Notes: generated by a model not told the origin, from the sequence alone. DNA of 30,427 bases from a virus (IMGVR_UViG_3300014501_000055:1-30427); one strand, 5' to 3'. Shown: positions 1,382-29,298, counted from the first letter of the stretch. Numbers and translations: made by a program.

Positions 1382-1472
1382 GGCCGAGAGTCATGCAAGC
1401 GCCCCGCTGGGCTGGCAACGCACGTTTGGCCATGTGGCGGCCGATGATGCCCAGAAAGCGCCGTAGGCTCAT
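1245..1472 (-). CDS. Possible small coupled ORF between ejection gene and fibre gene
   Basis: The ATG overlaps the stop of the upstream ejection-protein gene (ATGA), the coupling mode used throughout this cluster. It would encode 75 residues beginning MSLRRFLGIIGRH. The last two thirds overlap the fibre gene in another frame and are Pro/Arg-rich, as expected of a shadow frame, so at most the first ~30 codons look meaningful. It contains the recurrent CGTGCGTTGC motif. No family recognised; it may simply be the untranslated gap. Confidence 0.2.
   Translation of the reverse strand: MSLRRFLGIIGRHMAKRALPAQRGACMTLGHEPAAPDHPRRKPAGGRPVPAGSPCAERPAAAGSRPSRHRPPDLI
1415..1424 (-). promoter_or_regulatory. 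Recurrent late motif CGTGCGTTGC, copy A (before tail fibre)
   Basis: On the minus strand the sequence is ACGTGCGTTGCC, 33 nt before the fibre ATG. It is one of five copies of the 10-mer, all in the direction of late transcription. Function is inferred from position only. Confidence 0.45.
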
Positions 1473-3922
1473 TGGCCGATGGCGGTTCCGAGGTCCGGGG
1501 CGCGGGTTGGGGCACCCTCCCCGGACGGCCACCAATAGCCGCTGCCCTGCTTGGCGGCGTTTTTGGCCTGCCGGTTGAAGGACTGCCGGTAATTGGGGTC
1601 GACGAGAACCTGAATCTTGTCCCAGAGCAGCCGGTCGACGGCCAGCTTTGTGTACCAGGTCTGCGGCGTCCAGCGCTTGCCCATCGCAAAAGCCTGCTGC
1701 CCAAAGGTCTGCCGGCCGGTCTGATCGAGTTGTTGCCGGATTGGCGACGTTATCAGGTTAGCGGTGTCGCCAAGCAACCCAGGAATCGGGCCTAAAAGCT
1801 GGCTAGCAATCTCGGTGCCGCTGCGCTGGCCTTGGAGCGCCGCTGAGAGAATGTCGCCGTAGATGCCGCCAGCGCCGCCGCGCGCGAACGCCTGTACCCA
1901 AAACTTCGGCTGCGCCATGTCGAGCGGGTCTTTACCGGCGATCGTCGCCGCAGCCTGTAGCGATACCGCGCCGGCAGCCATGCTGAGCAAGGTGAAGGCC
2001 GCACCGCGGGCAACACGGTTTTCCAGCGGCCCATCGACCAGCGTGCGCATCAGGTGCGTGGTCATGCGCTCAAGGACGAATTGCTTGTATTGCCCGGCCG
2101 CCAGCCAAAACTCGCCCGATGCCGTGCCGCGCAACGCGCCGCCGCCGATGATAGCTTGCGTGCGAATATCCGGCTGGTGAAAAGCGTAGCTGCCCTGTTC
2201 CTTGATTGCCATCATGAGCCGGTCGGACAGCGGCGCGTCGATCTTGGTTGTGTCGAGATAGCGCGCGCCGTTGCTGGCGACGAATGGGTCTGGCGCGCGA
2301 ATCTTGTCCCAATCGGCGGGCGTGAAGCCGTAATAGCCGAGGAAATGATCGCGGAACGCCGGATCGAGTTTGTCGAACGATTGACCGCGCATCCCCTCGA
2401 TTTGATTGAGCATCGAGACTTGCCAGCCGAGACGGCCGTTCGTCGTCCACATATCGGCGCCGGTCGCCTTGACCACACCGCGCGACACCTTGCGGATCAG
2501 GCCGGATACGTTGATCTGATCCTCGTATTTGCGGACGTAATTGTTGATGAAGTCCATGTAGCCGTGCGAACTGATTTGAAGATGTTGCGCGACCTCACGA
2601 CTGAGCGAGCCGTCAAATACCTGGCCGAGCACGCGGAAGCCGGACATGCCGAGGAAGTTTGATGCCATCAGCGTCATCGCGGAATCGCCGGGAATGATGG
2701 TGATCGGCAGGTTGCGGAGCGATGCCATGCCAACAAGATCGCGCGCGCCGGACATGATGCGGGCAAACGTCTGATTGGCGACAGGATGACCGCGCCCGGC
2801 AATCAAATTATAGCTGTTTTGCAGCGTGTTCTGGCTCGTCATAAAGCCAGCGCCCTTGACCGGCGTACTCGGATCGTCCTTCACCAGCCGCATTGCAGCC
2901 GCCCACACCGCGTCGGGATGCGCGCCGAATGTCTCGTGCAGCGCAATCGAGCGCGCCATGTGATCGATGTGATTGCTCACCGCCGCCATGATCTCATTGC
3001 CAACGCCGTATTTGGCTTGCAGTTTGAGCCACGAATCGGCACCAGCTTGGCCGGACTGAAACTCAAATGTGCGGCCCTGCTTGGAGAATGGCGCATCGCC
3101 GCCGCCTTCGGTCTTGATGTCCGAATAGGCTTTTTTCAGCATGTCCTCATAGCGCGCCGCTGTCGCGTAGCGATTGGTTTCCTTGTCGAACAGCTTAAGG
3201 CCACCGTTCGATATTTCGGCCATGTGGTCTTTGACGTATTCGGCCTCCGGTACGCGCGCGACACGATCAGGTGTCCAGTGCTGCATCAGCCGCCAATCTT
3301 CTAGCTCGGCAAACACCTTGCCTGCAGCTTTGGCGCGATCAGCGCCGTAATCGATCATCTTCTGAAAGCCGTCCGACACCGCCTTGGCGGCAGGATCGGC
3401 GGTCGCAACACCGAAGCGCTCGCGAATGAAATTTTGCGTATGGTCGACGAGTTCTTGCCCTTTGGCCCAGCCAGATTTGAACTTGTCGAGTTCAGGGCCG
3501 AGCATGGCGAATAGCTGATCCTTGATGCGCAGCCCGCGATAGTCCGCGTTGCCATCGGAGAATATCGGGTGCGTCGGGTCATCTTTGCGCAGTGCATTGA
3601 GCCGGTTGTCGCCGATCAGCGTGTCTTTGCTCACCACGCCAGCGAGTGCGGCATTGCGCCCGCGCGGATCTTCGACGATGCGCTTCTCGATTGTCTGCCA
3701 GCGCTTCACATCGGCAGCGATGCCGATCTGATTCTGGATTGCCTTGTCGCGCATTTTCTTTGCGGTTTCGAGCGCGGCGGCGGCATCCGCGCTCGCGGGG
3801 CCGGTCTGGCGCGAATACTCGGCTTTCGAGCGGCGGAAAAACTCAAGCGCCTCGTCCGCGATCGCGCGGCTCACCGTTTTGGTGGCGACCAATTTTTCTA
3901 TACACTCGGCTACGTCAGCCAT
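1469..3922 (-). CDS. Large internal virion / ejection protein (817 aa)
   Basis: The 817-residue protein begins MADVAECIEKLVATK and is largely alpha-helical with Ala/Lys/Glu-rich stretches. A hydrophobic segment lies near the C-terminal quarter (AAFTLLSMAAGAVSLQAAA), followed by LLGPIPGLLGDTANL, consistent with a protein that inserts into or crosses the envelope. It occupies the place of the gp15/gp16 ejection proteins of T7-like phages, between the tail tube genes and the fibre. It starts 10 nt after the stop of the 515-aa gene and ends in an ATGA junction. No catalytic motif is visible. The ejection role is inferred from size, composition and synteny. Confidence 0.6.
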   Translation of the reverse strand: MADVAECIEKLVATKTVSRAIADEALEFFRRSKAEYSRQTGPASADAAAALETAKKMRDKAIQNQIGIAADVKRWQTIEKRIVEDPRGRNAALAGVVSKDTLIGDNRLNALRKDDPTHPIFSDGNADYRGLRIKDQLFAMLGPELDKFKSGWAKGQELVDHTQNFIRERFGVATADPAAKAVSDGFQKMIDYGADRAKAAGKVFAELEDWRLMQHWTPDRVARVPEAEYVKDHMAEISNGGLKLFDKETNRYATAARYEDMLKKAYSDIKTEGGGDAPFSKQGRTFEFQSGQAGADSWLKLQAKYGVGNEIMAAVSNHIDHMARSIALHETFGAHPDAVWAAAMRLVKDDPSTPVKGAGFMTSQNTLQNSYNLIAGRGHPVANQTFARIMSGARDLVGMASLRNLPITIIPGDSAMTLMASNFLGMSGFRVLGQVFDGSLSREVAQHLQISSHGYMDFINNYVRKYEDQINVSGLIRKVSRGVVKATGADMWTTNGRLGWQVSMLNQIEGMRGQSFDKLDPAFRDHFLGYYGFTPADWDKIRAPDPFVASNGARYLDTTKIDAPLSDRLMMAIKEQGSYAFHQPDIRTQAIIGGGALRGTASGEFWLAAGQYKQFVLERMTTHLMRTLVDGPLENRVARGAAFTLLSMAAGAVSLQAAATIAGKDPLDMAQPKFWVQAFARGGAGGIYGDILSAALQGQRSGTEIASQLLGPIPGLLGDTANLITSPIRQQLDQTGRQTFGQQAFAMGKRWTPQTWYTKLAVDRLLWDKIQVLVDPNYRQSFNRQAKNAAKQGSGYWWPSGEGAPTRAPDLGTAIGQ

Positions 3923-3931
3923 GCTATGATC

Positions 3932-5479
3932 CTATCTGCCGCCCTGACTACCAGCGTCCGCCTCCGAAGTTTCGGAAACTGGATTAGCACAAGCCTGAAT
4001 CTGCTCAGCAGCGGCCTTGTAGCCATCGACCTCGTTCATCGCACTATCGAGCGAGCGGTAAACCGGCTCGCCCTGTTCATCGACGCCAGCCGGGATTCGC
4101 ACGTTGCCAGCGACCTGCGCGCGCTCAATATCGGCCCGTAGCGCGGCTTCATGTTCCGGCGCAGCCAGCGTTTCGCGCATTTGATCGGCGCTCTGCATCG
4201 AGGGCGTTGCCGCGACTTCGGCATCAAGACGGCGCTGTGCAGCAAAGTCTGTCGCGCTCGGCAGCGTGTCGGCGACGGTCTGCGGACGATCCATGACCGA
4301 TTGAAGGATCGAACGCGCCTCGTTATCGGTCTTTGCCTTGGCGACACCTTGAGCAAGTATCTCAGCATCTTCTTTCGGCATGTCATAACCTACTGCCTTG
4401 GCGGTTCCGCTGATCCAGTCCTCTAGCGTGGCCGTATGTGCCTCTGCTGCTTGTTCTTTCGCTGCGGCCTCAAACGGCAATTCACCTATCGCGGTGGTGC
4501 GCTCAGCTTGCGCGGCTGCGGTCGCCTCGGTCGCGGCTCCGCGCGCCGTCATTGCCTCATCGACCGATGCGGCAGGATCGTGACCGGCTACCTGAGTATC
4601 AACGTCCATCTTGCGGCCCGCAACGATATCGTCGATCGCTTTGCCCAATGCCTCGCGGTGCGCGACTTCGCCACCGACGCTGGGCAAGACGTTCGATTGC
4701 TGGATATTGGCTTCGCTTTCGACGACGTTGCCCGCATCGCGCACTGTCGTCGGCAACATCGGATCAGTTTTCATGTAGCGCCACAGATTGCCGAGCAGCT
4801 TTGTGGTCGCGCCGAATGCTGCGCCGCCGATTCCAGCTTCCGCAATGTTCGCGCCCGGCTCTCCGCTCGCACCGTAGCCGGGCTGCACCTGTTCACGGAA
4901 ACCGGCGTTCATCTTCTCGTTAGCAGCCTGCGACACGGCGCCGAACGCGCCCCACAGCACCGCACGGCCAAGCACGCCGACCGCCGCTTCCGGCACCACT
5001 ACCGCACTGACGAGGTTCACCGGGTCAAGCGCGGTAGTCGCGATGCCGCCCAGCGCCATGCCGACCTTACCGCCGAATGTCTTTTCCCGGTCGGCCAGCG
5101 CTGCATAATTGGCGCGCGCGGTTTGCGATGCCTGGATCGTCCGCCGTTCGAGCTCGTCGTCGGTCAGGTCTGGAATGGTCATCAGCGCCGGATTGGCGGC
5201 CTTCATCTTGCCGACCACATCCTGTGCGGATTGCATCAGGTCGGTGCGGGCATAGACCTGCTTACGGATGTCCTCGCCGCTCGCCTGCTGCACGTCATTG
5301 AGATAGCCATCGAACGCCGCCCGCTCGGCATTGCTATGCGCGAGATTGTCGCTGAATTGCTGGCCCTCCTGCCACGCGGCGTCAAAGCTTTCGCCGAACG
5401 TCGCTGGCAGGTCGCGGCCTTCCTCGGGCTGCGGCAGCGCGGCAACGGCGGTGTTGTTCTGCCACAGGTCGAGCATCAA
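3932..5479 (-). CDS. Internal virion / ejection protein (515 aa)
   Basis: This 515-residue protein has an acidic, helical N-terminus and a glycine/alanine-rich amphipathic stretch at about residues 145-185 ([19 protein letters not shown], then [18 protein letters not shown]). Long Ala/Glu/Thr-rich coiled-coil-like sequence follows, including [16 protein letters not shown]. Its ATG overlaps the stop of the lysozyme-containing gene by 4 nt (ATGA). Together with the genes on either side it forms the ejection set expected between tail tube and fibre in T7-type gene order. No enzymatic motif is recognised and it could be one part of a split gp15/gp16-type protein. Function is inferred from context. 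Confidence 0.6.
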
Positions 5480-8400
5480 ACGCCGCCGTACATCTGCGGG
5501 ATCAGATTGGTGTTGTCGGGCGATGCGGCTGGCGGTCCAGTGCGATTGCGCAGGTCAAGCACGAACTTTTGCGGACTGCCGCCCAGGTATCGCGCGGCCT
5601 GTGCTTGGTGCAAGGATTGCGCATAAGCGTCCGCGTTATCTGGATTATCGAATTTGCCTAAGAATTTTCCAGTGCGGCGGTAAGTGTCGATCGCTTCCTG
5701 ATTAGACATAATGCGGCCGTCGTCGCTCACGGTTGGTACTAGAACTTCTTTGCCATCCTCGTCGAATGACATTGACCGCACGGTCGATATCGAACCGTCC
5801 GCATTTTTAACCGTTGGCCGACTGTTCAAGTCGATGTTGCCAGGAGTTACCATTCCATTTGCTTGACCTGTCGGCGCGCCGCTCGGAACGCCCTGATAGG
5901 CATAGATCGGCTTCATGGGATCACGGCCGAGTTTGACGAAGTAGCGGCCGTCACCAACGCTTTCGAGTTGCGCGGACGAGCGCAGATAGGCCGCCGTAAC
6001 CGGCTGGCCGCCGAGCGTCTTGACCCCGTTCAAGTCCTGATCGGTCACGCCTTGCAGCACACCGTCGAATCGCAGCTGGCTCATGCCGCGCGCGGGCGCT
6101 ATGAAATCGCCGCCGTTGTGGCGCAGGATGCCGCCGGTCACGTCCGTCACGGCTTGGTTTAGCCGCGCGGCCGAATAGGTGGTCTGCCCGGATTGCGCGG
6201 ACAGGTCGGCATAGCGGGCCTTCACCATGCTTTCCGTCGTCGCATACGCGCCGGCCGGGTCAGTACGGTCCTGTAGCGTGAAAATCGAGGACGGCAGCGC
6301 CTTGTCCAGATCGCCGTGATATTGCGCTTTGGCCTCGCCTTCGCCCTCCGGGTCATATCGCTTATCGGTCTTGATCGCCGTCTGGCCGCGAAAGATTGAC
6401 GCCGCCACATCGGGCGCGGTTGCCATCATCGAGCCTGCTGCGGCTTCCGCCATCCCGCTCGGCTCATTGCCGCCGATCTTGCGCAACGTCGCGCCGCGCA
6501 CGTCCTCGGGCAGTTGTGCGATGGCACCATAAATCCCAGCCTTGACCGCCGGATCAGGATTGGCGAGCGCAGCCTTGACCTGCACCAAATCCTGCTTGTC
6601 AAGCGCAGCAAGCGGGCCAGTCTGCCAATTTGCTGCCGCAGTCTGTGCAATCTGCCCACGCATTTGCAATCCGGCGAGCAGCTTTTGCGGGTCGCTGAAA
6701 TCGAGCGGGGCCGGCGTCTTAAACTTGTCGGGAAAATTCTGGACGGCCGTGGCTATCGGATCGTCCTGCAACCCCTTTTGGATCGCCTCGGTGCGAGCGG
6801 TTAATTGCTTCTCGATCAGGTCGGCGCCCGGCGTGGCCGATCCGCTCGCCATCTGCCGGCGGTATTCCAGTTCAAGCGCGGTCTGTTGCGCGACCGGCAG
6901 TTGCGAAATGCGCTCGACCTTATCCATGATGTCGAGGCCGCTTGCCACTTTGGCCTGCAAATCGACGTTGTTTGTCGAGCGCGCGGCGGCAATTATATCG
7001 TCAACGGTATCCTTGTTCGGAATGCCTCCCTTACCTGCCTGCCAATCGTCGGTGATCTGCTTCCACGCGCGCGTCGCGGTATCGTCCACCGTGGCCGTGC
7101 GATTGGCGATCAGCCACGATTGCACGCCGGGGCCACCGCTGCCATCCGATGGGTTACCCTGAAATACGCTGCGGGCGAGCGCCTGCCGGTTTGCAAAGCC
7201 CAAGCCGCCAGCCGGGTTTTCGGGCGTCCAACCCTGCGGGCGCTCGTAATTGATGAACGCCGCCGCCGCATCCTCGGGCGTGCGCGCGCCTTGCAATGCA
7301 GTCAGGGTCGCGGATTCCTTGCCGTGCAGTTCGTGATCGATGAATTCCAATTGCGTCTGAAAGTCCGATGCTGGCTTGCCGACCGATGCCGCATAGGCTT
7401 TCAGCGCGTCAAGCCGCTCAGCGTGAAATTGCGCGATGCCGCCCGACGTGCCCTGATCGCCAACGGCCAGCGGATTGACGCCGCTCTCATGCGCGAGATT
7501 ACCGACAATCCCGGATGCCTGCTCTGGCGTGTAGCCGCGCGATGTAAAGAACTGATAGGCCGAGCGCGCCGCCGCTGCACCACGGATCGAGTTCAACTGC
7601 TGCGTCTGATCGCCAAGCGGTTGCCGGCCGAAGTCGTCGTGCAAATCCTTATGCGCGAATGCCGAATCGACCATCGCCACGCCGGCCGGGTAGTTCGCCG
7701 CCGCAAACGCCTTGCGCACGCTTTCGACTTCATCCGGCTCAATCCGCTGGCCGAGTTGGGATGCGACGGATAGTTCACGAAATGACTCGCGCGCCTCGCC
7801 GATGTCCTGCCGGCGGATTGCCTCGTTGGCCCTGATCTCCCCGACCGAGCGTGCATAAAACCCCTGCCGCTGCGTCTCGTCCAGTTTGTAATCTGGATTG
7901 CTCAGAATATCCTTGGCGGAATCCATCGCCGCCGTGTAGCCCTGCGTCTTGTAAACCTGATCGACGTGGTACAGATTTCGCGCGCCGGCAATCTGGCTTT
8001 GGAACTGCTGTAAATCAAAGTCGCGCTGTTCCGGCGTGTAAGCCAAACGCGGGTTGCGGGTTTTCTCATCGAGCAACGACGTGTATTTGCTGAGCGCCTG
8101 CTGCATCGCCGGATCGTTGGCCGCCGCGCCGCCGCGCGCCATTGCGATAGCATCGTCGCTCGCCGAATTGATGCCGGCCGTGATCGAACCATCCGCGCGC
8201 GCTAGATCAAGCCGCTCTTTCTCATTGAGCAGCCCGCGATAGGTCAGCGTGGTTTTAGAATCGATAGACCGGCCGAGCGCAGTCCCGACTTCGGGTCCGG
8301 CTACGGCCGTCATGTCCTGCACGGCCTTTTGCTTGTACGCCTGCGCCGCCGCCGCGTAGCCTTCCGGGTTGTCCCGGTACTGTTGGCGAATGGCAATGTC

Positions 8401-8739
8401 CTGGCGGTCGGCCGCGCCGTCAGCTTCCGCCAATGCGCCGATCTTTACCGCGCGGGCGTAGGCCGTCCCGGCCAAGCCGAAGATCGGCATGTGTGAGACT
8501 TGAATGTCGCCGTTGGCATCGCGAGTGACGGCTTCCGCACCGGCACGTTCGGCCAGCGGAACCGCAGCGGTTTCCAGCGCATCGCCAGTCTTGTCGAGCG
8601 CGCGCGACAATTCCTCATAAGGCTGCGCGACCTCGGTACCGCTGAGCCGAGTCTGCGGTGCTTCGCTTGTCTCGACCGCCGCAACGCCCGGCTCGATGCC
8701 GGTTTGCGTTTGTCGCACGAAGGGCAATACGTCGGGCAT
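5476..8739 (-). CDS. Ejection protein with internal lysozyme domain (peptidoglycan-degrading)
   Basis: The 1087-residue protein has a helical N-terminal part, then at about residues 390-525 a domain matching phage tail lysozymes: [20 protein letters not shown], then LAHESG with E418 as likely catalytic glutamate, then [29 protein letters not shown] and FINYERP. Such domains cut peptidoglycan during DNA entry, as the transglycosylase of T7 gp16 does. Residues about 967-1051 form a second conserved block ([55 protein letters not shown]) that I associate with other podophage ejection proteins but cannot assign a function. The gene overlaps the upstream 184-aa gene by 1 nt and the downstream one by 4 nt. 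Confidence 0.8.
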
Positions 8740-11846: not shown

Positions 11847-11855
11847 GGGCTATTC

Positions 11856-12599
11856 TCAGCCCGGCAGACCCCCGCCGCCGCCCCAGCCGTCAATGCCGAT
11901 CGGCGGCCATGGCCTTCTAATGCGGCGGGATGCGGAAATGCGACAATTAAACATCATCCGCTTGGGCTTCTGCTGGTCGTACCGGGTGCGCGCCTTTTGC
12001 AGCATCGACTCGCCGGCCATCCACATCTTGTCGCCTTCGGCCGGGTCCTCATGCAGCCCGCGATAGATGCCGGACATGACGAAGCTTTGCAGCGCGAGGA
12101 TGAGCGTCGGCGTGCCGGACGTGGAATCGCATAGCGCGCCGGAATTGGAGATGTATTTGAGCGTGATCGTCGCTGGCGCGATGCCGCTATTGGGAGGCGG
12201 CGGCGGCGGGCCGCCCATCGCATTGGTAACGATCACCGGGCCGCTCGGCGTGCCCATGATGTCGTAGAGCGTCAATTGATTGGTCGTGGCGCTGGTCGGG
12301 TCGCCCACGTCCTGATTGATCTTGAGCCAAACGATGTGAACGCAGTCGTTCGGGATCGGATAGGCGGTGTCCCAATCGGTGTCCTGCGGCGCGGTCGGGC
12401 TCGGCTGTAGCGTCACGACAAGGGCGGCATAGCCCCAATTATGGCTCTCCATCGCGTAGGCAAGCCCGCGCTGATAGGCCGGATCGCAGATGTTCCATTC
12501 GTCGCTGCCGTCATCGGCAACCGCCACGCCGTCGTCGCCAGTCGCGGCAAGCGCACTGTTTATGATGCCGAGCTCATCGATCGGAAACTGGTAGGCCAT
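11856..12599 (-). CDS. Tail tubular protein A (T7 gp11-like adaptor/gatekeeper)
   Basis: The 247-residue protein contains the family hallmarks: ELGIINSALAATGDD at the N-terminus, ANA-type helix RGLAYAMESHNWGYA, and DWDTAYPIPNDCVHIVWL, which matches the tail tubular A pattern of W-x-x-x-Y-x-[IL]-P-x-D. The C-terminal helix LQSFVMSGIYRGLHEDPAEG is also typical. It caps the portal and connects to tail protein B. A poly-proline insertion (residues about 131-136) and a glycine run near the C-terminus are unusual. A GGGAG-like Shine-Dalgarno lies about 11 nt upstream. It follows the recurrent motif copy B. Confidence 0.85.
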   Translation of the reverse strand: MAYQFPIDELGIINSALAATGDDGVAVADDGSDEWNICDPAYQRGLAYAMESHNWGYAALVVTLQPSPTAPQDTDWDTAYPIPNDCVHIVWLKINQDVGDPTSATTNQLTLYDIMGTPSGPVIVTNAMGGPPPPPPNSGIAPATITLKYISNSGALCDSTSGTPTLILALQSFVMSGIYRGLHEDPAEGDKMWMAGESMLQKARTRYDQQKPKRMMFNCRISASRRIRRPWPPIGIDGWGGGGGLPG

Positions 12600-12651
12600 G
12601 CGCGACGATGCTCCCGGAGTTCATGTGCGGCAACGCACGCCGCCCCGTCAT
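12574..12651 (-). CDS. Possible 25-aa coupled ORF before tail tubular A
   Basis: The ATG overlaps the stop of the TPR-like gene (ATGA) and 25 codons follow, beginning MTGRRALPHMNSGS and overlapping the start of tail tubular A. It contains motif copy B. Like the ORF at 1245-1472 it encodes Arg-Ala-Leu-Pro from the motif. It could be a coupling peptide or only an untranslated spacer. Confidence 0.2.
   Translation of the reverse strand: MTGRRALPHMNSGSIVAHGLPVSDR
12630..12639 (-). promoter_or_regulatory. Recurrent late motif CGTGCGTTGC, copy B (before tail tube genes)
   Basis: The minus strand reads GCGTGCGTTGCC, 30 nt before the tail tubular A start, in the 48-nt gap between genes. Same orientation as the other four copies. 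Confidence 0.45.
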
Positions 12652-14079: not shown

Positions 14080-14082
14080 AGA

Positions 14083-15718: not shown

Positions 15719-15726
15719 GATGATCC

Positions 15727-16335: not shown

Positions 16336-16349
16336 GGTCGGTATCCTCA

Positions 16350-17303
16350 TCAGGCCACGATTGGCGCGTTGGTCCAGGAAGTCAGGCGGCCGAGGCAATA
16401 CTTGTGCTCATCAACCAGACCGACATCCCAGGCGATATGCGTGCGGAACGTCTTGCGATCTTCCAGCAAGCCTACATCTTCCGGCGTCAGGTTACGGACG
16501 TAGATGCCGCGTAGCATGCCCTCGCCGAGCGTGATGCCGTAGAGCGAAGCCGTGACGGCCGAGCCGCCGCCGTTGCCGACCTCGTTGAATTGCAGCACCG
16601 GCACCTGATCGTCCTTGGGGTAGCCCCACAGTAACCGCAGGCCGGCGTAGCTGATCTTCGGCATGCCGACCTCATCCCAGGTCTGCATGACGAAGCCGGT
16701 GAGGGTCGAAGTGCGCGCCGCCTGAATCCACAGCGGCAGCGAAATGAACGGCACGAAGATGTAGGTGGTGCCGGACTTGCGCGAGATGTTGTTGAGGAAC
16801 TGGTCGAGATTGCCGAGCGACAGCGCGGCGCCGCTCGATGCCGTCGAGTTGTTGTAGAGCCGCCCGAACTTCTGGGCGCGGACTTGCAGGCCGTTGAACA
16901 CGCGCGGATTGGTCGATTGGTCGCCCTTGACAAAGGTATCGATCCACAAGCGCGCAAAGGCGGTGATGCCCATGCGTTCCTCGTAGTTTCGCCGCTCTGG
17001 GCCGTGACGATCCTGAATGGCGCGGTCCACGTCTATGTCGTGGTCGATGATATAGGTCGCCTCGTCGAACGGGCTGATCGTGCCGTGGCCGGTCGATGAC
17101 GCTTCGTTGATGGCGCGGAACACCGGAGTCGGCAGGACTGCCTCGCGATAGCCGACGTATTTTGAGCCACGCAGGCCCTCGAACGGCATGACCTCGAAAA
17201 CGTCACTGTATTGCGTGAACATTTCGATGATCGTGCGGCGGATGTCCTCATTGGAAAAACCCTTCGCATATTCGGGAAGGGTAATCAGATTCGAGACAGC
17301 CAT
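16350..17303 (-). CDS. Major capsid protein (podovirus HK97-fold type)
   Basis: The 317-residue protein contains features of podophage coat proteins: an N-arm leading to YSDVFEVMPFEGLRGSKYVG, an extended loop (RAINEASSTGHGTISPFDEA), the helix RNYEERMGITAFARLWIDTF, and a C-terminal RKTFRTHIAWDVGLVDEHKY followed by WTNAPIVA. It lies directly after scaffold and before cement, as expected. GAGAGGA about seven nt before the ATG is one of the strongest Shine-Dalgarno sequences in the cluster, fitting high expression. It would form the icosahedral shell. Confidence is high from order and length (about 320 aa). Confidence 0.85.
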   Translation of the reverse strand: MAVSNLITLPEYAKGFSNEDIRRTIIEMFTQYSDVFEVMPFEGLRGSKYVGYREAVLPTPVFRAINEASSTGHGTISPFDEATYIIDHDIDVDRAIQDRHGPERRNYEERMGITAFARLWIDTFVKGDQSTNPRVFNGLQVRAQKFGRLYNNSTASSGAALSLGNLDQFLNNISRKSGTTYIFVPFISLPLWIQAARTSTLTGFVMQTWDEVGMPKISYAGLRLLWGYPKDDQVPVLQFNEVGNGGGSAVTASLYGITLGEGMLRGIYVRNLTPEDVGLLEDRKTFRTHIAWDVGLVDEHKYCLGRLTSWTNAPIVA

Positions 17304-17318
17304 CGGTCAGTCCTCTCT

Positions 17319-17534
17319 TTAGGCAACACTGCCGCTTGCAGTGTAGGTGTAGGTCGCAAGAGCAGAATTTGGCGTGCCGACAGCATTAGTGCCGAGAACG
17401 GTTCCAGACGAAACGGCGCCCTGCGTCCGCTGTATCTGTGCGCCGAGCTTTTCCAATACCCGGCAAATATAGCCAGCCTCGGACGATTTCTTATCGAAAA
17501 CCTGATCGGCAATGGTGACGGTGAGGACGGTCAT
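17319..17534 (-). CDS. Small head-cluster protein (71 aa)
   Basis: The ATG overlaps the scaffold stop (ATGA) and the stop lies 15 nt before the capsid start, so it is embedded in the head operon. The protein begins MTVLTVTIADQVFDKKSSEA, has a short amphipathic helix (YICRVLEKLGAQIQRTQGAV) and ends in a small-residue, beta-prone stretch. No family recognised; a small minor head or decoration component is plausible from location. Confidence 0.65.
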   Translation of the reverse strand: MTVLTVTIADQVFDKKSSEAGYICRVLEKLGAQIQRTQGAVSSGTVLGTNAVGTPNSALATYTYTASGSVA

Positions 17535-18394
17535 GATGCAGCGCTGCCGTTTTTCTGGAACTGGCGCTGATCGAACTGCCGCGAGTAATCGAGACGCTGG
17601 GCCGGCGTCATTGCCTTATACTGTTCGTCAGTCGCACGGCCGGGCTGTTGCGGCGGCTCGCGGCCGGTGCCGCGGAACGAAGCGCCGCCCTGATTGGAAA
17701 CTTTGGTGATAAGTTTCTCGACGATTTCGACATCGCGCGCGGTGAACATCCTTGATGCAAGTTGAGCGCCTTCGGCGTCGCCGAGAAATGCCTTGAGGAA
17801 CGTGGTGACTGCGGTGACACGCGCCGGGCCGGTAGTGCCGAGCTTGGCAACTTCGGCATCGCGCGCCGTCTGGATTTGCGCCTGCGACGCGACCTGTGCA
17901 CCGCCGTAAAGGCCGAGCAACCTTGAGAAGTTTTCCTGCGACAGCCCCATCTCGTGCGCCATCGTGCGCGCCTGCGAGAGCAGCGGGTCACCGTCGTTGA
18001 ATTTGAACTCGATGCCGGCCGGCGGTTTGAAATCGGCGGGCAGCGCGATCTTGTAATCCTCGGCCTTCTGCGGCAGCGAGTTTTTGCGCACGTCATCGGC
18101 CGCAACGCGGGCCGTCAGTGTCGCAAAATGCTCGCCTAATTCCTTGTCTTTCGCTTTACCGGCGGTCGCATCCCAGAACGCCTCCGGAATGTAAGCGGGA
18201 CGCGCGGCGACTTGCGTTTGCTGCGTGCCGCTATTCTGATTTTGCTGGCTCTGAGTTCCGTTCTTCTGGCCCGTAGTCTGGGTCGTTTGGCTGCTTTGCG
18301 AGCCATTCCCTTGCTGTGAGTTGGTGCCCGATGTTTGCTGGCTGCCGCCTTGCGAAGACGACTGGCCGCCCTGATTGCTTGTCTCGTCCGCCAC
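17531..18394 (-). CDS. Scaffold protein
   Basis: The 287-residue protein begins with about 64 residues of Gln/Ser/Gly/Thr low-complexity sequence, then AYIPEAFWDATAGKAKDKEL, a region with SLPQKAEDYKIALPADF, LLSQARTMAHEMGLSQENFS and a helical C-terminal half ending AQRLDYSRQFDQRQFQK. The I-P-E-x-F-W-D opening and the A-x-E-x-GLSQ-x-x-F block are typical of podophage scaffold (head assembly) proteins. It would direct capsid polymerisation and leave before packaging. The gene starts inside the Bbp19-like gene (164-nt overlap) and ends with ATGA coupling to the 71-aa gene. Motif copy C lies 67 nt before the start. Confidence 0.75.
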   Translation of the reverse strand: MADETSNQGGQSSSQGGSQQTSGTNSQQGNGSQSSQTTQTTGQKNGTQSQQNQNSGTQQTQVAARPAYIPEAFWDATAGKAKDKELGEHFATLTARVAADDVRKNSLPQKAEDYKIALPADFKPPAGIEFKFNDGDPLLSQARTMAHEMGLSQENFSRLLGLYGGAQVASQAQIQTARDAEVAKLGTTGPARVTAVTTFLKAFLGDAEGAQLASRMFTARDVEIVEKLITKVSNQGGASFRGTGREPPQQPGRATDEQYKAMTPAQRLDYSRQFDQRQFQKNGSAAS

Positions 18395-18602
18395 CGTCGA
18401 TTCCTTCGGCCATTAGGCCCATCAGTTCGGCGGCAAAACTGCGTCGTCCTTCATTGTGGGGCAACGCACGTTCGTTAACGAAGTTGGTTGTGACGGCGCA
18501 GAGAATCTTCTGGCAATACAGATAAATCAACCGCCCATCGGCGGTGCGCGCCACGCGGTCGAAAGCGTCGCGCATATCCTGATCGGTCAGTTCTTCGCTC
18601 AT
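18231..18602 (-). CDS. Bbp19-like small head protein overlapping scaffold
   Basis: The ATG (18602) overlaps the portal stop by 4 nt (ATGA). The first 70 residues carry the recognisable part: MRDAFDRVARTADGRLIYLY, CQKILCAVTT, and LPHNEGRRSFAAELMGLMAE, which resembles the short Bbp19 family found between portal and scaffold in BPP-1-like phages. The remaining 53 residues are translated from DNA that is also the scaffold N-terminus (164-nt overlap), where the sequence is polar and shows no obvious fold. The role in the virion is not known to me. An in-frame stop earlier would have avoided the overlap, so the long overlap may be maintained. Confidence 0.65.
   Translation of the reverse strand: MSEELTDQDMRDAFDRVARTADGRLIYLYCQKILCAVTTNFVNERALPHNEGRRSFAAELMGLMAEGIDGGGRDKQSGRPVVFARRQPANIGHQLTAREWLAKQPNDPDYGPEERNSEPAKSE
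18462..18471 (-). promoter_or_regulatory. Recurrent late motif CGTGCGTTGC, copy C (before scaffold/capsid)
   Basis: The minus strand reads GAACGTGCGTTGCCCC, inside the Bbp19-like gene and 67 nt before the scaffold ATG. The motif also encodes Arg-Ala-Leu-Pro here. Confidence 0.4.
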
Positions 18603-20236
18603 GATGCCGGCCCTGGCGGTTGATCCGGCGCACCAGCGACATGCCGCGCGCCGACCAGTTGTGCCATTTGTTTCACCGCCGCCTGCACCTGATCGGGCTT
18701 GCGGAACTTGAGCAGCGTGACGCGCATCTTGGCGAGGATGGCTTTGATGCTTTCCGCGCCGTCGATGTACATCTTGAATTCTTCCGGGAACGCCTGACCG
18801 CAAAGCTGGATCGCCTTCGCCGTCATGCCGACTTCCTGCTGCTCGGCGGCAGCCTGCGCCGGGTTGCGCGGCATGGTCGAGATGGCGCGGCCGTCGACGC
18901 GCAACGGCGCGATGGCGCCGGAAACCTCAAGCAAATACTTGAAGCGCAGGAAAATGTTGGCCGGCCCCTCGCGCCAGAACGGCAGGCCCGGCGTGCCGAC
19001 GCGGCGCTGCGCGCGCGCCATCTCGTCAAGCCACTGGCCGAGCGTCGGCGGCGTGTCGCCGGTCTGCTCGGGATAATCGACGAAGAACAGCTTGCGCAGC
19101 TTCTTGAGCTTTTCGGTATATTGGAAATTGGCGGCATCGGCCGGCGGCGGCACGAAGATCGGCTTGATCGTGCCTTCCGAGCCCGGCCGCACCGGATAAC
19201 CCATGCCTTCCTCGATGCCCTGTTCGATGTTCACAATGCTGTCGTCAGGGTAGGCAATCGCCGGATTGACCGATTTCGATGCGTGCTCGGTGCGGATGAA
19301 TTCGAGTTCGTCGATCTGCCGGAACGTCGGCAAACCCTGGATCATCGGGCCGTTGCCGTGCGGCCAGTCCGCGGTCGGATTAAAGCGCATCACCAACAGC
19401 GGGCATGAGCCCTCGCCCCTCAACTCGGCATCGTGGATGAGCGTATTTTGCAGCATGACGACGGCCTGCCAAACCTCGTCCGCCTTGTCGTCCCATTTGC
19501 GCCAGAAACCCCAGATGACTTGCGTGCGATCGGACGGCTTGTCGTCGTGAAGCTTTTTCAGGTCAGCGGGCATCTTCGCCCAGATGTCCTCACCGACGAG
19601 TTCGCGGACGTAATGATTGCGCGTGTAGCGCACGGCGAAGCGGGTATCGATGTCGCCGTAGGGGCCGAGATCGATTTCGAGTTCGCGCAACGGGATCGCA
19701 GAAACAGTGATTGCCGCGGCGGGATGCGGGCGCTCGATCCACATTGCGGTCGTGCCGATGGCGAGATCGGGATAGAACGCCTTGGTGACTTCGGGATAAA
19801 GGTTCGACGCCTTCATGGCCTCGAAAATTTTATCGTCACCGGATTTGACCTGATCCTTGATTGCTTTCCACACCGGGCCTTCACGACCGCCCGGCAAATC
19901 CATGCCCGGCCCGCGCTCGCACCACGGCTCGCCTTCCGGCATGAAGGCGTTGACGATTTCGGTAATGAAATCCTGGCAGATAATGAACGCTTCGTCGGTG
20001 TTCAGTTCCGGCGCGTCAAGCATTCGAGACTGCGACGGCATGACGGCGGACGAGATTTGCCTTTGACGATTTGGTGCGGTGAAGAAGTAGCATTCCTTGA
20101 AATCAAGCTCGACGTAAGACTTCCACGTCCGGCACGCGGCGAGGCGGCTTATCGCCTGCTGTTGCAACGTGCGCGTCTCGCCGGTCGATACCGCTTCGGT
20201 CTGCGTTGCGTTGGCCGGGATTGGATCGTCAGCCAT
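18599..20236 (-). CDS. Portal protein (head-to-tail connector)
   Basis: The 545-residue protein is of the length and style of podovirus portals: RTWKSYVELDFKECYFFTAP near the N-terminus, the DF-x-x-E-[IV]-x-x-x-[FM]-MP block (FITEIVNAFMPEGEPWCERG), YPDLAIGTTAMWIERP, NPTADWPHGNGPMIQGLPTF, and a long C-terminal helical part with YLLEVSGAIAPLRVDGRAIS. It forms the dodecameric ring through which DNA is packaged and ejected. The C-terminus is Pro/Ala-rich and ends in an ATGA junction with the Bbp19-like gene. Confidence 0.85.
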   Translation of the reverse strand: MADDPIPANATQTEAVSTGETRTLQQQAISRLAACRTWKSYVELDFKECYFFTAPNRQRQISSAVMPSQSRMLDAPELNTDEAFIICQDFITEIVNAFMPEGEPWCERGPGMDLPGGREGPVWKAIKDQVKSGDDKIFEAMKASNLYPEVTKAFYPDLAIGTTAMWIERPHPAAAITVSAIPLRELEIDLGPYGDIDTRFAVRYTRNHYVRELVGEDIWAKMPADLKKLHDDKPSDRTQVIWGFWRKWDDKADEVWQAVVMLQNTLIHDAELRGEGSCPLLVMRFNPTADWPHGNGPMIQGLPTFRQIDELEFIRTEHASKSVNPAIAYPDDSIVNIEQGIEEGMGYPVRPGSEGTIKPIFVPPPADAANFQYTEKLKKLRKLFFVDYPEQTGDTPPTLGQWLDEMARAQRRVGTPGLPFWREGPANIFLRFKYLLEVSGAIAPLRVDGRAISTMPRNPAQAAAEQQEVGMTAKAIQLCGQAFPEEFKMYIDGAESIKAILAKMRVTLLKFRKPDQVQAAVKQMAQLVGARHVAGAPDQPPGPAS

Positions 20237-20237
20237 A

Positions 20238-20456
20238 TCACGTCTTAACGGCAGTAGGCGTAACCATTGGCGAGACTGTGGTGCCCGCCATCGCCAGTTG
20301 CGTACCGTACCGCGCCATCAACGACGCCATATCGGATTGCGTTTGGGTTTGCAGGCCGCCGACCAAATCGTTCTGCGCCTGCTGCTGTTCGGTGTCGAGG
20401 TTTGGGTCAACCGGGATTGACGGGGTGCTTTCCTTCATCGATGCGCTGGCCGCCAT
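20238..20456 (-). CDS. Small protein before portal (72 aa)
   Basis: The frame extends upstream to a TTG at 20549, but that would place 31 residues inside the preceding gene; the ATG at 20456 (MAASASMKEST) is preferred, and one at 20438 is also possible. The product is polar, with a Gln-rich helix (DTEQQQAQNDLVGGLQTQTQ) and a Thr/Ala-rich end. It ends 1 nt before the portal start. Genes of this size upstream of portal are common in podophages; no family recognised. No strong Shine-Dalgarno is visible for either start. Confidence 0.5.
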   Translation of the reverse strand: MAASASMKESTPSIPVDPNLDTEQQQAQNDLVGGLQTQTQSDMASLMARYGTQLAMAGTTVSPMVTPTAVKT

Positions 20457-20847
20457 GTTGCAGAATGTACCGATAGAGAGCGTCAGGCCGATACATAGCG
20501 CAACGCACGCCAAGCAGATGCCGTATCGCCGTGACGCAATTAAAGCCAACGCGGCCGGTCGGGCCCATGGGTTGCAAGGCGCGGGCGATCTTCACCACCG
20601 CGCAGCCTGCCGTGTATTGCATGAGCGTCGCCTTGGCGGTCGCCGCCGGGAACAGGATCAGCCGCGTGCCGCCCCATTGCGTGTCATAGAGCAGCCAAGC
20701 TTTGAAGCCGGGGCAGTAAGCGAAGGCCGAGACGTGCTTGAAGCGGCCGAACGCGAGCAGCGCCAGCCAGCGCATTTTTGTTTCCGGGTGAAACACCACA
20801 AACCACTCGGTCGGCTCGATGGCGTTCGGCAGATCGATCGCTTCCAT
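20407..20847 (-). CDS. Conserved-looking phage protein with possible His/Cys dyad (146 aa)
   Basis: The gene begins 3 nt after the terminase stop. The protein reads EWFVVFHPETKMRWLALLAF, then GRFKHVSAFAYCPGFKAWLL, then YDTQWGG, a hydrophobic middle, and FNCVTAIRHLLGVRCAMYRP with ALYRYILQHGG. The H of FKHVSAF (about residue 38) and the C of NCVTAIRHLLG (about 103) are placed like the His-then-Cys order of permuted papain/NlpC-type folds, but that is only suggestive. Position between terminase and portal suggests a packaging or head-associated role. No named family recognised. It contains motif copy D. Confidence 0.65.
   Translation of the reverse strand: MEAIDLPNAIEPTEWFVVFHPETKMRWLALLAFGRFKHVSAFAYCPGFKAWLLYDTQWGGTRLILFPAATAKATLMQYTAGCAVVKIARALQPMGPTGRVGFNCVTAIRHLLGVRCAMYRPDALYRYILQHGGQRIDEGKHPVNPG
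20500..20509 (-). promoter_or_regulatory. Recurrent late motif CGTGCGTTGC, copy D (before portal-side genes)
   Basis: The minus strand reads GGCGTGCGTTGCGC within the 146-aa gene, 43 nt before the small gene that precedes portal. The flanking base after the 10-mer is G rather than C, unlike the other copies. Confidence 0.35.
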
Positions 20848-20850
20848 GGC

Positions 20851-22347
20851 CTAACCCATGACGCGGCGCATGGTCCGGCGCTCGGGCCGCAGCCGCACAG
20901 GTTGCATCGTGCCGATCGGTTGCAGCCCGATCATGCGGCGCCCTTCGCCGGCGCTGATGCAAAAATACTGCGCGCAGTCGCACAGGTTGGAATACTTGTC
21001 TTTCATCGGCCGCAGTACACCATCTGCTTCGCGCACCAAATGATAGCGCCCGGCCATGCCGATAATGAGCGTGCGGCATAATGGCGAAATCACCAGCCGG
21101 TTGACGCCGCTTGGATTGTCGTTGAGCGCATAGGCTACAGCCTCGGTGCGCTCGTCGATATTGTTCATCTTCACCGGGGCCGCCGTAACCGGCATGCCGT
21201 TGAACCGGAAAATATCGTAGCTCGATTGCTCGGTCTGCTGGCCCTTATCGCGGCCCTTCGGATCGCCGACGCAGCGGAAGCCGTGGCCGCGATAATTCTG
21301 TTCGAGGAACCGCTTGACCTTCGGCGCAAAGACCGATGCCGGCTCGTTGAAACCGAGCATTTCGTACTGGAAATAGAGGCGCTGGTTGACTTCCTGACCG
21401 AATAGCGCGGCCGGATAAACGCGGCCGAAGTCGAGTGCCACGATCACATCATGCCCAGGAATGGGCCGCAGCGGCTCGCGCGCGACGTGATATTCGCGGC
21501 GGAACATCGGCCACACCGGCTGACCGTCGACCACGAGTGCAACACGGTTCATCAGCCGCGAATCGATCCATGCCTTTGACGGCGCGCCGATGCGCAGTTC
21601 CTCGTAGTAGCCGTCCGGCAAATTCTTGAGATTTTCGGCTTCCGGATTGATGTCGTATCGCGTGATCAGCCCGCGCTCGTCGGTCTTTTCGATCAGCGCC
21701 GGCGGCTGCATGTGAAAGCCCCACGCGGGCGGCCAGTGATATTGCGCGGCCTCATCCGCAGAAATGCCGATCGGCAACTCAACCTGCCCGGTCATCATGC
21801 CGAGCCAATGGTCCTCGTCGGGAGCGTTGGAATCGGCAATCACGCCGCGCCATGGATTCGGGCCTCCATGCTCGGGCGGCGGATAGCGCAGCCGCGAGCG
21901 CGCCTCGACGAACAGATCGCGAATGATAAAGCCGAGTTCGTTGAACGCAATGCCGGTGTATTCGGTCGAGCGCAGCTTGCGCACGTCCTCGTCCTTGTCG
22001 AGCGAAAGGAAGTCGACCACCGTTTCGATATCGCCGAACCTGATGCGGTGCTGCATGACCCCGCCATAGGTGAAACGGCCGTAGATCGATTCCGGGAACA
22101 GCCGCAGCCATGTCAGGATCGTGCTGCGCCGCAGGTCCGGCATCGTATTGCGCACGATCGCAAAGCGGGTGCGGCGCACGCCGTCGATCGGCGACGGCAC
22201 CTGCTCCTGCGCATGCCGCATGATGCGGATGCACAATGCCATGGTCTTGCCGGAACCGAGCGGCCCCTGGATCACATCGACCGGGCGGCTGGACGAGACA
22301 AAATCGCAAAGCTTGGTGCCGGCCAGAAACTCGTATTCCGCGGGCAT
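20851..22347 (-). CDS. terL: Terminase large subunit (packaging ATPase/nuclease)
   Basis: The 498-residue protein shows the Walker A GPLGSGKT at residues 28-35, a Walker B region TGIAFNELG at 131-139 ending in the catalytic Glu, and an RNase-H-like nuclease with VALDFGRVYPAALFGQ around D306 and a second acidic site GDPKG at about D362. The length is typical. It cuts concatemeric phage DNA and pumps it through the portal. The gene overlaps the stop of the 196-aa gene by one base. Confidence 0.9.
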   Translation of the reverse strand: MPAEYEFLAGTKLCDFVSSSRPVDVIQGPLGSGKTMALCIRIMRHAQEQVPSPIDGVRRTRFAIVRNTMPDLRRSTILTWLRLFPESIYGRFTYGGVMQHRIRFGDIETVVDFLSLDKDEDVRKLRSTEYTGIAFNELGFIIRDLFVEARSRLRYPPPEHGGPNPWRGVIADSNAPDEDHWLGMMTGQVELPIGISADEAAQYHWPPAWGFHMQPPALIEKTDERGLITRYDINPEAENLKNLPDGYYEELRIGAPSKAWIDSRLMNRVALVVDGQPVWPMFRREYHVAREPLRPIPGHDVIVALDFGRVYPAALFGQEVNQRLYFQYEMLGFNEPASVFAPKVKRFLEQNYRGHGFRCVGDPKGRDKGQQTEQSSYDIFRFNGMPVTAAPVKMNNIDERTEAVAYALNDNPSGVNRLVISPLCRTLIIGMAGRYHLVREADGVLRPMKDKYSNLCDCAQYFCISAGEGRRMIGLQPIGTMQPVRLRPERRTMRRVMG

Positions 22348-22937: not shown

Positions 22938-23191
22938 CAGTTCCTCTCGTTATGCAGGGTCGTCCATTCCTGCATAGCGATAAACATGCGCCCGATGGCT
23001 TCGGAAAATTTAAGCGTTGTCGAGCACTTGTTCGACCAATCGCCGTCCGGATGTCCCATAATCACCACGACCGTATCGACGTTCCCCGTCTCGGCTTCCG
23101 CAAGCGCATTGCGCAGAATCCGCACCACACTCTCGCGCACGTCATCGGCGGCTTTCGGCGGCGTGACAAGCTTGATCGGCTCGGCGCTCAT
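22937..23191 (-). CDS. Small hypothetical protein (84 aa)
   Basis: Start chosen at the ATG overlapping the stop of the 127-aa gene (ATGA at 23188-23191); longer readings run back into that gene. The protein begins MSAEPIKLVTPPKAADDVRE, has a helix (SVVRILRNALAEAETG), a strand DTVVVIMGHPDGDW and a second helix EAIGRMFIAMQEW. This is a compact alpha/beta outline. No family recognised. Confidence 0.6.
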   Translation of the reverse strand: MSAEPIKLVTPPKAADDVRESVVRILRNALAEAETGNVDTVVVIMGHPDGDWSNKCSTTLKFSEAIGRMFIAMQEWTTLHNERN

Positions 23192-23571
23192 CCGCTGGCT
23201 TTGTCGATTTTCGGCATGGTCGGTATCCATGGCCGCGGCGGTTCCTTGAGAATTGCGCGCGGCGGCACCTTCAACCGGATCATCTTGTCGCAATGCTTGC
23301 TGATGATTTCCTCGTCACGCGGGGTATAAGGCTCGATCTCGACGCCGCCAGCCCGCGGCTTGCAAAGCAGCCGGACCTGCATCAAAACCGCGCCCTGCTC
23401 GGGGTCGGGCGACACATCGCTGAAATGGCCTTCGCGGATCACAAAGGCTTTGACCAGACCAACCTTGCGGATGTTCTTCGCCCAGGCATTGATCTCATCG
23501 GTGTATTTCTCAAGAAAATACTCAGGAATATTGAGAAAGCGCACCGAACCGCAATTGATGACCGATTTCAT
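23188..23571 (-). CDS. Hypothetical accessory protein (127 aa)
   Basis: Start chosen at the ATG overlapping the preceding stop (ATGA). The protein begins MKSVINCGSVRFLNIPEYFL, contains KYTDEINAWAKNIRKVGLVK and VLMQVRLLCKPRAGGVEIEP, and ends in a Pro-rich tail (RPWIPTMPKIDKASG). The middle looks alpha/beta. No known domain is recognised; it is one of a run of coupled small genes between the two terminase genes. Confidence 0.6.
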   Translation of the reverse strand: MKSVINCGSVRFLNIPEYFLEKYTDEINAWAKNIRKVGLVKAFVIREGHFSDVSPDPEQGAVLMQVRLLCKPRAGGVEIEPYTPRDEEIISKHCDKMIRLKVPPRAILKEPPRPWIPTMPKIDKASG

Positions 23572-23771
23572 GACGCCCTCTTGATGACCGCCGGAACCGC
23601 CGGCTCGGCAAAATCCACATTGCACCCCGCGCAGTGCAACCCGGCCGCAAAAAACTTCACCGCCTCGTCCGGCGCCAGCACACACATCGCATCGCCAAAC
23701 TTCACCCGAACCCCGCCACTCAGGTCGGGCTCGACCATCAAAACCCCGAACTTGCCAACCGGCTTGCTCAT
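23568..23771 (-). CDS. Small Cys-containing protein (67 aa)
   Basis: The 67-residue protein starts at an ATGA overlap and contains CVLAPDEAVKFFAAGLHCAG followed by CNVDFAEPAVPAVI. Three cysteines (C at LHCAGC and earlier AMCVL) could bind metal, though the spacing is not a standard zinc ribbon. Function unknown. Confidence 0.55.
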   Translation of the reverse strand: MSKPVGKFGVLMVEPDLSGGVRVKFGDAMCVLAPDEAVKFFAAGLHCAGCNVDFAEPAVPAVIKRAS

Positions 23772-23998
23772 GAGCGCTCGCAGATCAAAGCTATGGACCG
23801 CCGCATCCCCTCGGCATCGATCTTGTCAACCTCCTGCTGTGCAATGACCGCGCCAGCATAGGTATGCGCGGCTCTAACACTATCGAGCCAGCGGATATAG
23901 GCGGCGCGGAGCTCGACATCGTTCATCTCGTGATACGGGTCAGCCACTCGCTTTGCAGCAAGGGGATCGCCAATTTCCGCGCTGTCAAATTTCGCCAT
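23768..23998 (-). CDS. Small hypothetical protein (76 aa)
   Basis: Start taken as the ATG at 23998, forming TGATG with the stop of the DUF2158-like gene; a GTG one codon earlier is equally possible. The protein is mostly helical: ADPYHEMNDVELRAAYIRWL, then DSVRAAHTYAGAVIAQQEVD and EGMRRSIALICERS. No family recognised. Confidence 0.55.
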   Translation of the reverse strand: MAKFDSAEIGDPLAAKRVADPYHEMNDVELRAAYIRWLDSVRAAHTYAGAVIAQQEVDKIDAEGMRRSIALICERS

Positions 23999-24189
23999 CA
24001 CGATAACTCCAATCGTCCTGGCGGCTCCCGCACCAACTCATCCGGCCGAAACGACGAAAACCGGAACCGCGCACCGTCCAGCCAGATAACCTCCACAAAC
24101 CCGCCGTCCATCCGAACCACCATCATCAGCGGCGAACCAGTCCGTAGCCATACCTCATCGCCAAACCGGAATGTTTCGCCAGCCGCCAA
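23998..24189 (-). CDS. DUF2158/YodC-like small protein (63 aa)
   Basis: The sequence FRFGDEVWLRTGSPLMMVVR, then GGFVEVIWLDGARFRFSSFR and PDELVRE matches the short YodC-like pattern F-x-x-GD-x-V-x-L-[KR]-[ST]-G-[GS]-P-x-M-x-V...W-x...F-x-x-x-x-L. The start is a TTG with TGGAAAA just before it. Such proteins are small beta-barrels of unknown role, common in phages and bacteria. Confidence 0.65.
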   Translation of the reverse strand: MAAGETFRFGDEVWLRTGSPLMMVVRMDGGFVEVIWLDGARFRFSSFRPDELVREPPGRLELS

Positions 24190-24219
24190 TTTTCCAGCCC
24201 CAACATTTTCAGCCGCCAG

Positions 24220-24291
24220 TCATTTCGCAGGCCCAGTGATTTGCGGGCAGAATGTGTGGACAGTGGATAGGAGCGGCGCGCGAACGATCAT
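24220..24291 (-). CDS. Possible 23-aa coupled ORF
   Basis: The ATG overlaps the stop of the terminase-small-like gene (ATGA) and 23 codons follow (MIVRAPLLSTVHTFCPQITG...). The ~100-nt gap between the two larger genes otherwise holds nothing visible. Too short to judge. Confidence 0.2.
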   Translation of the reverse strand: MIVRAPLLSTVHTFCPQITGPAK

Positions 24292-24881
24292 TTTTCCCCT
24301 CCGGTCGCCTCATCGTCGGATTTGCCCGGCCGCGTGTGCACATTTGGATGGTCGAGCTCGTGCGGCGTTGATGGCTCATGAGTGCGAGATTCCTGCAACG
24401 CATTGATATGATTAGCTGTGACTGCATGTGCATCGATTGCGCCGGCGCTGGCTGGCGGTGCAATCACGTTCGTCACAACGCGAATCACTACGCCAGGCGA
24501 TGCACTTACACCGGAGCCGCGCTGCTGCTGCTCATCGCCAAGCTGCTCAAGCACTTTGATGGCTTGCACTGCCGGCATGTTGTTCTCGGCATCGCGTATT
24601 TCGCACAGGCGAAGAATGTTTTTGCCGGATGCCGCAGCACGAAGTACCTCCCTGCGCTGTCTGAGATGCGCGAGCACATGAGCACGCGCGAACGCTTGCC
24701 GCAGTTGGAATGTGGTCAATCCGGCTGCTGTTGCTGCATCTCGCAGGTCAGCGCCCTCAAATACGATCAACTCAATCGCTTGGTGTAGCTTTCGTCCTAT
24801 GCGTGGCGCTTTGATTGGCTTGTCCAACGCTGCACTGCGTGGTGGTGCTCGGTTGGTGATTGCAATGTCTGTGCTGGTCAT
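24288..24881 (-). CDS. Putative terminase small subunit (HTH DNA-binding)
   Basis: Start taken as the ATG at 24881 (MTSTDIAITNR); a GTG at 24998 is open but overlaps the regulatory region. Residues about 25-100 carry a helix-turn-helix and following helix: LHQAIELIVFEGADLRDAAT, AAGLTTFQLRQAFARAHVLA, HLRQRREVLRAAAS, then IRDAENNMPAVQAIKVLEQL. This layout (HTH with D-A-A-x-x-A-G-[LM], then N-x-x-x-x-x-AI-x-x-LE) is typical of phage terminase small subunits, which recognise the packaging site. The tail is Pro/His/Thr-rich. It lies 2 kb upstream of the large subunit with small genes between, so the assignment is moderate. Confidence 0.55.
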   Translation of the reverse strand: MTSTDIAITNRAPPRSAALDKPIKAPRIGRKLHQAIELIVFEGADLRDAATAAGLTTFQLRQAFARAHVLAHLRQRREVLRAAASGKNILRLCEIRDAENNMPAVQAIKVLEQLGDEQQQRGSGVSASPGVVIRVVTNVIAPPASAGAIDAHAVTANHINALQESRTHEPSTPHELDHPNVHTRPGKSDDEATGGEK

Positions 24882-24989
24882 TGCTGCTCTGCTCAAGCGA
24901 CCCTCGCGCTGCGCTATGCTCGGTGAAGTAATAGACGCGCGGGCGCGATGCGTGACGCGCGATGGAATGCCCGATATTTGCTTTTTCTG

Positions 24990-24999
24990 GCAACGCACG
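24990..24999 (-). promoter_or_regulatory. Recurrent late motif CGTGCGTTGC, copy E (before terminase-small-like gene)
   Basis: The minus strand reads CAACGTGCGTTGCCAG in a true intergenic region, 108 nt before the chosen ATG and at the head of the whole late cluster. This non-coding copy argues that the motif acts at the DNA or RNA level. Confidence 0.5.
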
Positions 25000-29260: not shown

Positions 29261-29269
29261 GTTGGGCGC

Positions 29270-29298
29270 CCCATAGCATGTCACTACGCAGTTGACAA
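29270..29298 (-). promoter_or_regulatory. Leftward promoter of the Cro/YdaS-like gene
   Basis: TTGTCA (29298-29293), 17-nt spacer, TGC-TATGGG extended -10 (TATGGG at 29275-29270). Its -35 overlaps the -35 of the rightward promoter. Confidence 0.5.

Follow-up and report, generated by a model that had tools for sequence, protein, structure and literature searches.

In the λ CII/CI system an HTH protein binds at or beside the promoter -35 element, CII sites being paired direct repeats and CI sites palindromic, and T7-like phages (Autographiviridae) carry many same-strand promoters along the structural module, each a single block of ~20 bp. Bacteriophage Mu possesses several late promoters (lys, I, P, mom), which are switched on by the activator C together with host RNA polymerase (PMC4461284), and in the middle promoters of phage T4 a MotA box replaces the -35 element upstream of a σ70 -10 box (PMC7403470). 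The alphaproteobacterial GTA activators GafA and GafYZ drive capsid/terminase clusters via host RNA polymerase, GafY contacting RpoD; the GTA has one main cluster promoter with normal -10 and -35 elements, a far-upstream GafY element and IHF (PMC9638019, PMC11150451).

Here we analysed a stretch of viral DNA (the window, i.e. the whole 30,427 nt of IMGVR_UViG_3300014501_000055:1-30427; all coordinates count from its first letter) that probably belongs to a temperate podovirus of Hyphomicrobiales with T7-like structure. Five copies of a short word are found in its late region, and they are likely the upstream (-35-position) halves of five bipartite late promoters. The word, (A/G)CGTGCGTTGC (9-10 bp), would be located at about -40 to -32 and stand in for a normal -35 element, followed 17 ± 1 bp downstream by a minimal -10 box, CANNNT, which keeps the -11 A and the -7 T. 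At the cleanest sites the start codon would coincide with +1, resulting in leaderless mRNAs. A phage-encoded DNA-binding protein would probably read the word and bring host RNA polymerase, presumably with σ70, to the sites, the best candidate being an XRE-type HTH protein encoded at 25449-26036. Taken as a whole, we regard this explanation as quite probable, and we lean slightly towards its being an undescribed system of a large group of rhizobial podoviruses, in which an XRE protein replaces -35 recognition at about five dispersed late promoters, giving leaderless mRNAs, with at least six spellings of the word, the reader co-evolving with all sites of its genome.

The arrangement shares features with each of the described systems, Mu C, T4 MotA and GafA/GafY being the nearest in mechanism. 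As for Mu C and P2 Ogr, several late promoters would use one recognition word; C, however, belongs to the Mor/C family. Our candidate reader is of the XRE kind, its site would be one 9-10-mer without palindromic symmetry, and leaderless mRNAs are predicted for many of the genes. As in T4 middle promoters, a short phage word takes the place of the -35 element before a -10 box, but genes and timing differ, MotA is unrelated in fold, and an AsiA-like partner was not identified here. With GafA/GafYZ it has in common a (candidate) DNA-binding activator in Alphaproteobacteria and structural gene clusters as targets, although here the putative promoters are many and dispersed and the word is situated at -35. 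An HTH protein at or beside the -35 element is reminiscent of λ CII/CI, but the site is one single word, and the repeated promoters on one strand of a T7-like structural module recall the Autographiviridae, although here they are bipartite and include a -10 box. One word at several same-strand putative late promoters is combined with a -10 box at promoter spacing that lacks a standard -35 element. The sites and the late genes are as follows:

1415-1424, minus strand: core of site A, before the fibre/spike-like gene with its ATG at 1381
12630-12639, minus strand: core of site B, before the tail tubular A-like gene with its ATG at 12599
12605-12610, minus strand: CATCGT, the -10-like box of site B, separated from the core by 17 bp; +1 is predicted approximately at the ATG at 12599
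18461-18470, minus strand: core of site C, within the small gene between portal and scaffold (18231-18602)
18436-18441, minus strand: CAGTTT, the -10-like box of site C, separated from the core by 17 bp, in line with the enrichment in the family
20500-20509, minus strand: core of site D, within the 146-aa gene, which is followed downstream by a small ORF and, after it, the portal gene
24990-24999, minus strand: core of site E, ~110 nt before the ATG of the terminase-small-like gene at 24881
2-1381, minus strand: fibre/spike-like gene, downstream of site A, running off the window
11856-12599, minus strand: tail tubular A-like gene (phrog_394 and phrog_9239), predicted leaderless mRNA from site B
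16350-17303, minus strand: major capsid protein (phrog_212, E 6.3e-41)
17531-18394, minus strand: scaffold-position gene, assigned by position (weak phrog_3742), conserved in 14/14 genomes
18231-18602, minus strand: small gene between portal and scaffold (cluster 22), holding site C
18599-20236, minus strand: portal (head-tail connector; PF12236, E 2.1e-21; phrog_332)
20407-20847, minus strand: 146-aa gene (cluster 6), holding site D, conserved in 14/14 genomes
20851-22347, minus strand: terminase large subunit (phrog_979, E 2.4e-6)
24288-24881, minus strand: terminase-small-like gene, the first late gene, conserved in 14/14 genomes; the family call is weak, with the JY08 homologue matching Sf6_terminase at E 0.6

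Exact CGTGCGTTGC occurs five times on the minus strand and not once on the plus strand of the window, and three further copies with one mismatch are likewise on the minus strand. An earlier note on this DNA had reported the five copies and the lack of one in the opposite orientation, and the search of both strands bears it out, except that it placed the site C copy at 18462-18471, i.e. off by one. Its argument that chance would give less than one copy holds for this particular word (0.07-0.29 minus-strand copies expected from Markov models of order 1-5), but not for 10-mers in general, as 89% of simulated GC-rich sequences hold some 10-mer at five or more copies. Thus, the window by itself is no proof of significance, which the word acquires because it is conserved in relatives. 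That each late module has one copy before a gene start is mostly right; the copies of sites C and D are located inside genes, and the note, too, had counted two within coding sequence.

Searches of IMG/VR with the capsid and portal proteins brought up 159 matches, many of which share a contig. The search of genome and relatives on both strands that had been proposed as a check gave 53 late-strand copies of exact CGTGCGTTGC versus two on the opposite strand in these IMG/VR relatives, and 134 versus two when each of the 22 larger genomes, which are related and not independent, so that a binomial p-value is too optimistic, was searched with its own spelling. A genome holds some 5-9 copies, most of them at constant places ahead of certain genes. 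When k-mers were searched de novo, GTGCGTTGC or a word close to it came out as a leading late-strand word in many longer relatives. The sites are found at homologous places: upstream of the capsid gene at ~7 kb (terminase-small-like gene), ~2.95 kb (in the gene upstream of the portal gene) and ~0.92 kb (within the small gene between portal and scaffold). Another place is downstream of the capsid gene, before the tail-tube gene. Sites C and D of the window have their counterparts in relatives, and so has site E, which also recurs in the Bradyrhizobium plasmid NZ_CP094518.1 (L206, sp. ISRA432). The capsid protein of this plasmid is 69% identical, and its annotated integrase and S24 peptidase indicate that it is in fact a (temperate) phage genome of this group. 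Used as a held-out test, it contains six copies of GTGCGTTGC, all in late orientation and at the same places, one of them exactly 40 nt before an independently annotated start, as well as an XRE homologue (E 4e-32), and it fits the picture of bipartite late promoters.

Prophage relatives are present in Microvirga, Gellertiella and other Hyphomicrobiales assemblies; as to named phages, we found no close one except Microcystis phage Mwe-JY08 (L168, PP395640.1). The relatives of the latter are Hyphomicrobiales prophages, so its host label may be wrong. A contig in an actinobacterial MAG (Salinibacterium; L163, SCSV01000188.1) is a phage of this group and was probably mis-binned. In four relatives (L007, L010, L072, L081) the first late site is preceded, at a distance of ~65-150 bp, by an inverted copy of the word that points away from it and may constitute a divergent promoter.

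When the de-duplicated sites are aligned, more conserved positions appear 24-33 nt downstream of the word. An A...T (-10-like) box with the consensus CANNNT is present at index 27-29, i.e. ~17 bp (17 ± 1) downstream of the word, in 61% of the 204 sites; at control offsets the figure is 11% (maximum 18%). For an ATG at index 39-41 the corresponding values are 39% and 4.5% (maximum 12%). These figures are direct counts over the 204 sites (an earlier set comprised 147), which replaced an EM refinement that had locked to one spacing. The -10 box begins 12 ± 1 nt before the ATG, which tends to shift with it. By established promoter geometry this puts the ATG at the predicted +1, and the mRNAs of the tail-tube class are, judging from the -10-to-ATG distance, likely leaderless. 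Several tail-tube sites directly abut an intrinsic-terminator-like T-run. About 40% of the family sites lack the A...T box, and in the window no clear -10 element is apparent at sites D and E, while site A, with its ATG at index 42, has a poor one and strictly no A...T box. The earlier note stated that no -10 element aligns with the word, which is incorrect for no fewer than two of the five copies, as site B has CATCGT and site C CAGTTT. Among the functions that it had left open, a phage-specific promoter or activator site has good support from the -10-like box, the ATG at +1, the common orientation, the homologous positions and the coordinated change of the word described below.

The 22 larger genomes use six spellings, GTGCGTTGC, GTGCTTTGC, GTGCGGTGC, GTGCGTTGA, GGGCATTGC and GATCATTGC, one per lineage, and all copies in one genome change together. 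In G006 GGGCATTGC and in G011 GATCATTGC occur five times each, at the same places and with the same downstream geometry, and other relatives have GTGCTTTGC, GTGCGGTGC or GTGCGTTGA. A true absence of the motif in relatives of the L018/L048 type was considered and rejected, as other spellings were found there. When sites C and D are identified solely from their protein context, the two words of a genome agree in 23 of 27 cases, as compared to a mean of 13.3 and a maximum of 19 after shuffling. Such coordinated change is what a trans-acting reader predicts, and a phage-made factor likely reads the word. Moreover, at site D the word is found in all three reading frames across relatives, encoding different peptides, so that the constraint acts on the nucleic acid, just as the earlier note had suspected when it favoured selection on DNA or RNA over selection on protein.

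Which protein might be the reader? Two regulator-like genes of the window were considered:

25449-26036, minus strand: XRE/CI-type HTH protein with a basic C-terminal tail, 195 aa, candidate late activator
28076-28612, minus strand: homologue of the cell-cycle regulator GcrA (PF07750, E 6.9e-29)

The HTH gene closes the early region and immediately precedes the first putative late promoter. In a comparison of 14 genomes one non-late, non-structural gene was universal, coding for ~150-240 aa and located at this very position, and an XRE homologue is found in every motif-bearing genome that is long enough to hold it. Absence of the gene from G011, first taken as support, was rejected, as this contig begins inside the gene and a partial XRE tail is present at its very start. 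Pfam support for the HTH is marginal and support from sequence databases weak, so it is chiefly the predicted fold that speaks for an XRE protein: the AlphaFold model has a pLDDT >90 over the HTH and displays a four- to five-helix HTH fold, which in Foldseek resembles HipB, ClgR, C-proteins and λ CI (probability ~1, E 0.03 or worse), with 1rio (CI with σ region 4) among the fold matches. In Pfam and PHROGs the candidate had no match to the Mor/C or Ogr families. From its universality and position it is plausible, and in our estimation rather probable, that this protein reads the word. Insertions just after the recognition helix are present in 6/7 homologues from phages with altered spelling versus 2/32 others (hand tally; Fisher p 6e-5), a link that is only suggestive, as it is confounded by shared ancestry, five of six belonging to one clade. 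Promoters of a phage σ factor (T4 gp55 or phiEco32 gp36 type) were rejected as no Sigma70_r2 match was obtained in 27 records, with controls positive, although a very divergent σ-like protein could be missed by this search. For T7-like RNA polymerase, PF00940 matched in 0/25 records in a search run without a positive control. The early region also codes for a YdaS/Cro-like regulator (29042-29410, minus strand; PF15943, E 5e-10).

The same promoters might be served by another reader, for example the GcrA homologue, the terminase-small-like protein or the 146-aa protein. Caulobacter GcrA is a σ-2 co-factor (PMC7403470) and a homologue is encoded in the window and in 13/27 related phages; it is, however, missing from many motif-bearing genomes (G007, G022, G023, G026 and G029), and the promoters show no enrichment of GANTC, so that GcrA was rejected as reader on account of its patchy presence and this lack of enrichment. 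The terminase-small-like and 146-aa genes are as universal as the XRE gene (14/14), but are late genes themselves, and we give another reader a small chance overall. That no phage reader is needed at all, the sites being ordinary host σ70 promoters with a TTGC-type -35 element, would agree with the TTGC common to most spellings, which sits at the place of TTGACA with a 17-bp spacer. Yet the GTGCG half is conserved within a genome as well as TTGC and changes in step at all sites, in G023 all nine late-strand copies are spelled GTGCGGTGC and so lack an intact TTGC, and the -10 box seems too weak to sustain a promoter without help, all of which makes this quite unlikely.

Bipartite promoters read by a phage factor also account better for the data than functions that do not involve transcription initiation. 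The copies point in the transcribed direction within the late operon, as would be expected of an RNA signal for antitermination, processing or translation control, two of which the earlier note had listed. The -10-like box at 17 bp and the ATG at +1 correspond to promoter geometry instead, the latter would leave the word outside the mRNA, and several copies directly follow terminator-like T-runs; an RNA signal is thus very improbable. Protein-coding conservation or chance could be invoked because two window copies are coding and five-copy 10-mers are common in GC-rich simulations, but it is refuted by the three reading frames and different peptides at site D, together with the non-coding location of other sites, and by the strand bias of 134 versus 2, and hardly deserves consideration. 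The same is true for a signal of the KOPS or Chi kind, which would mark polarity or recombination and guide a DNA motor: the word is indeed short, non-palindromic and strand-biased, but is present in only ~5-9 copies per genome, mostly before particular genes with -10 box and ATG at fixed distance, and its spelling differs between close relatives.

For the word and this promoter type we found no relevant literature in a search that covered few subscription journals. The proposed bipartite promoters would offer a testable late-gene switch for abundant, largely uncharacterised phages of soil- and plant-associated Alphaproteobacteria, and the six spellings with their likely readers would form a natural series, unusually well suited to the study of how the specificity of a DNA-binding protein and that of its regulon change together. 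Leaderless late mRNAs, if true, would be unusual for highly expressed structural genes.

Other features of the window may be mentioned. Directly past site E, at ~24945-24975 on the minus strand, there is a non-coding block, CATCGCGCGTC(A/C)CGCATCGCGCCCGCG, that also occurs in the Bradyrhizobium phage-plasmid near 26200; it is conserved between distant relatives and is possibly a packaging (cos/pac) site beside the small terminase gene. An O-antigen ligase-like protein (PF04932; 12916-14079, minus strand), encoded in the late region between the tail-tube gene and the capsid block, is a possible surface-changing gene, and a large internal protein (5476-8739, minus strand) contains a phage tail lysozyme domain (PF18013, E 1e-29).
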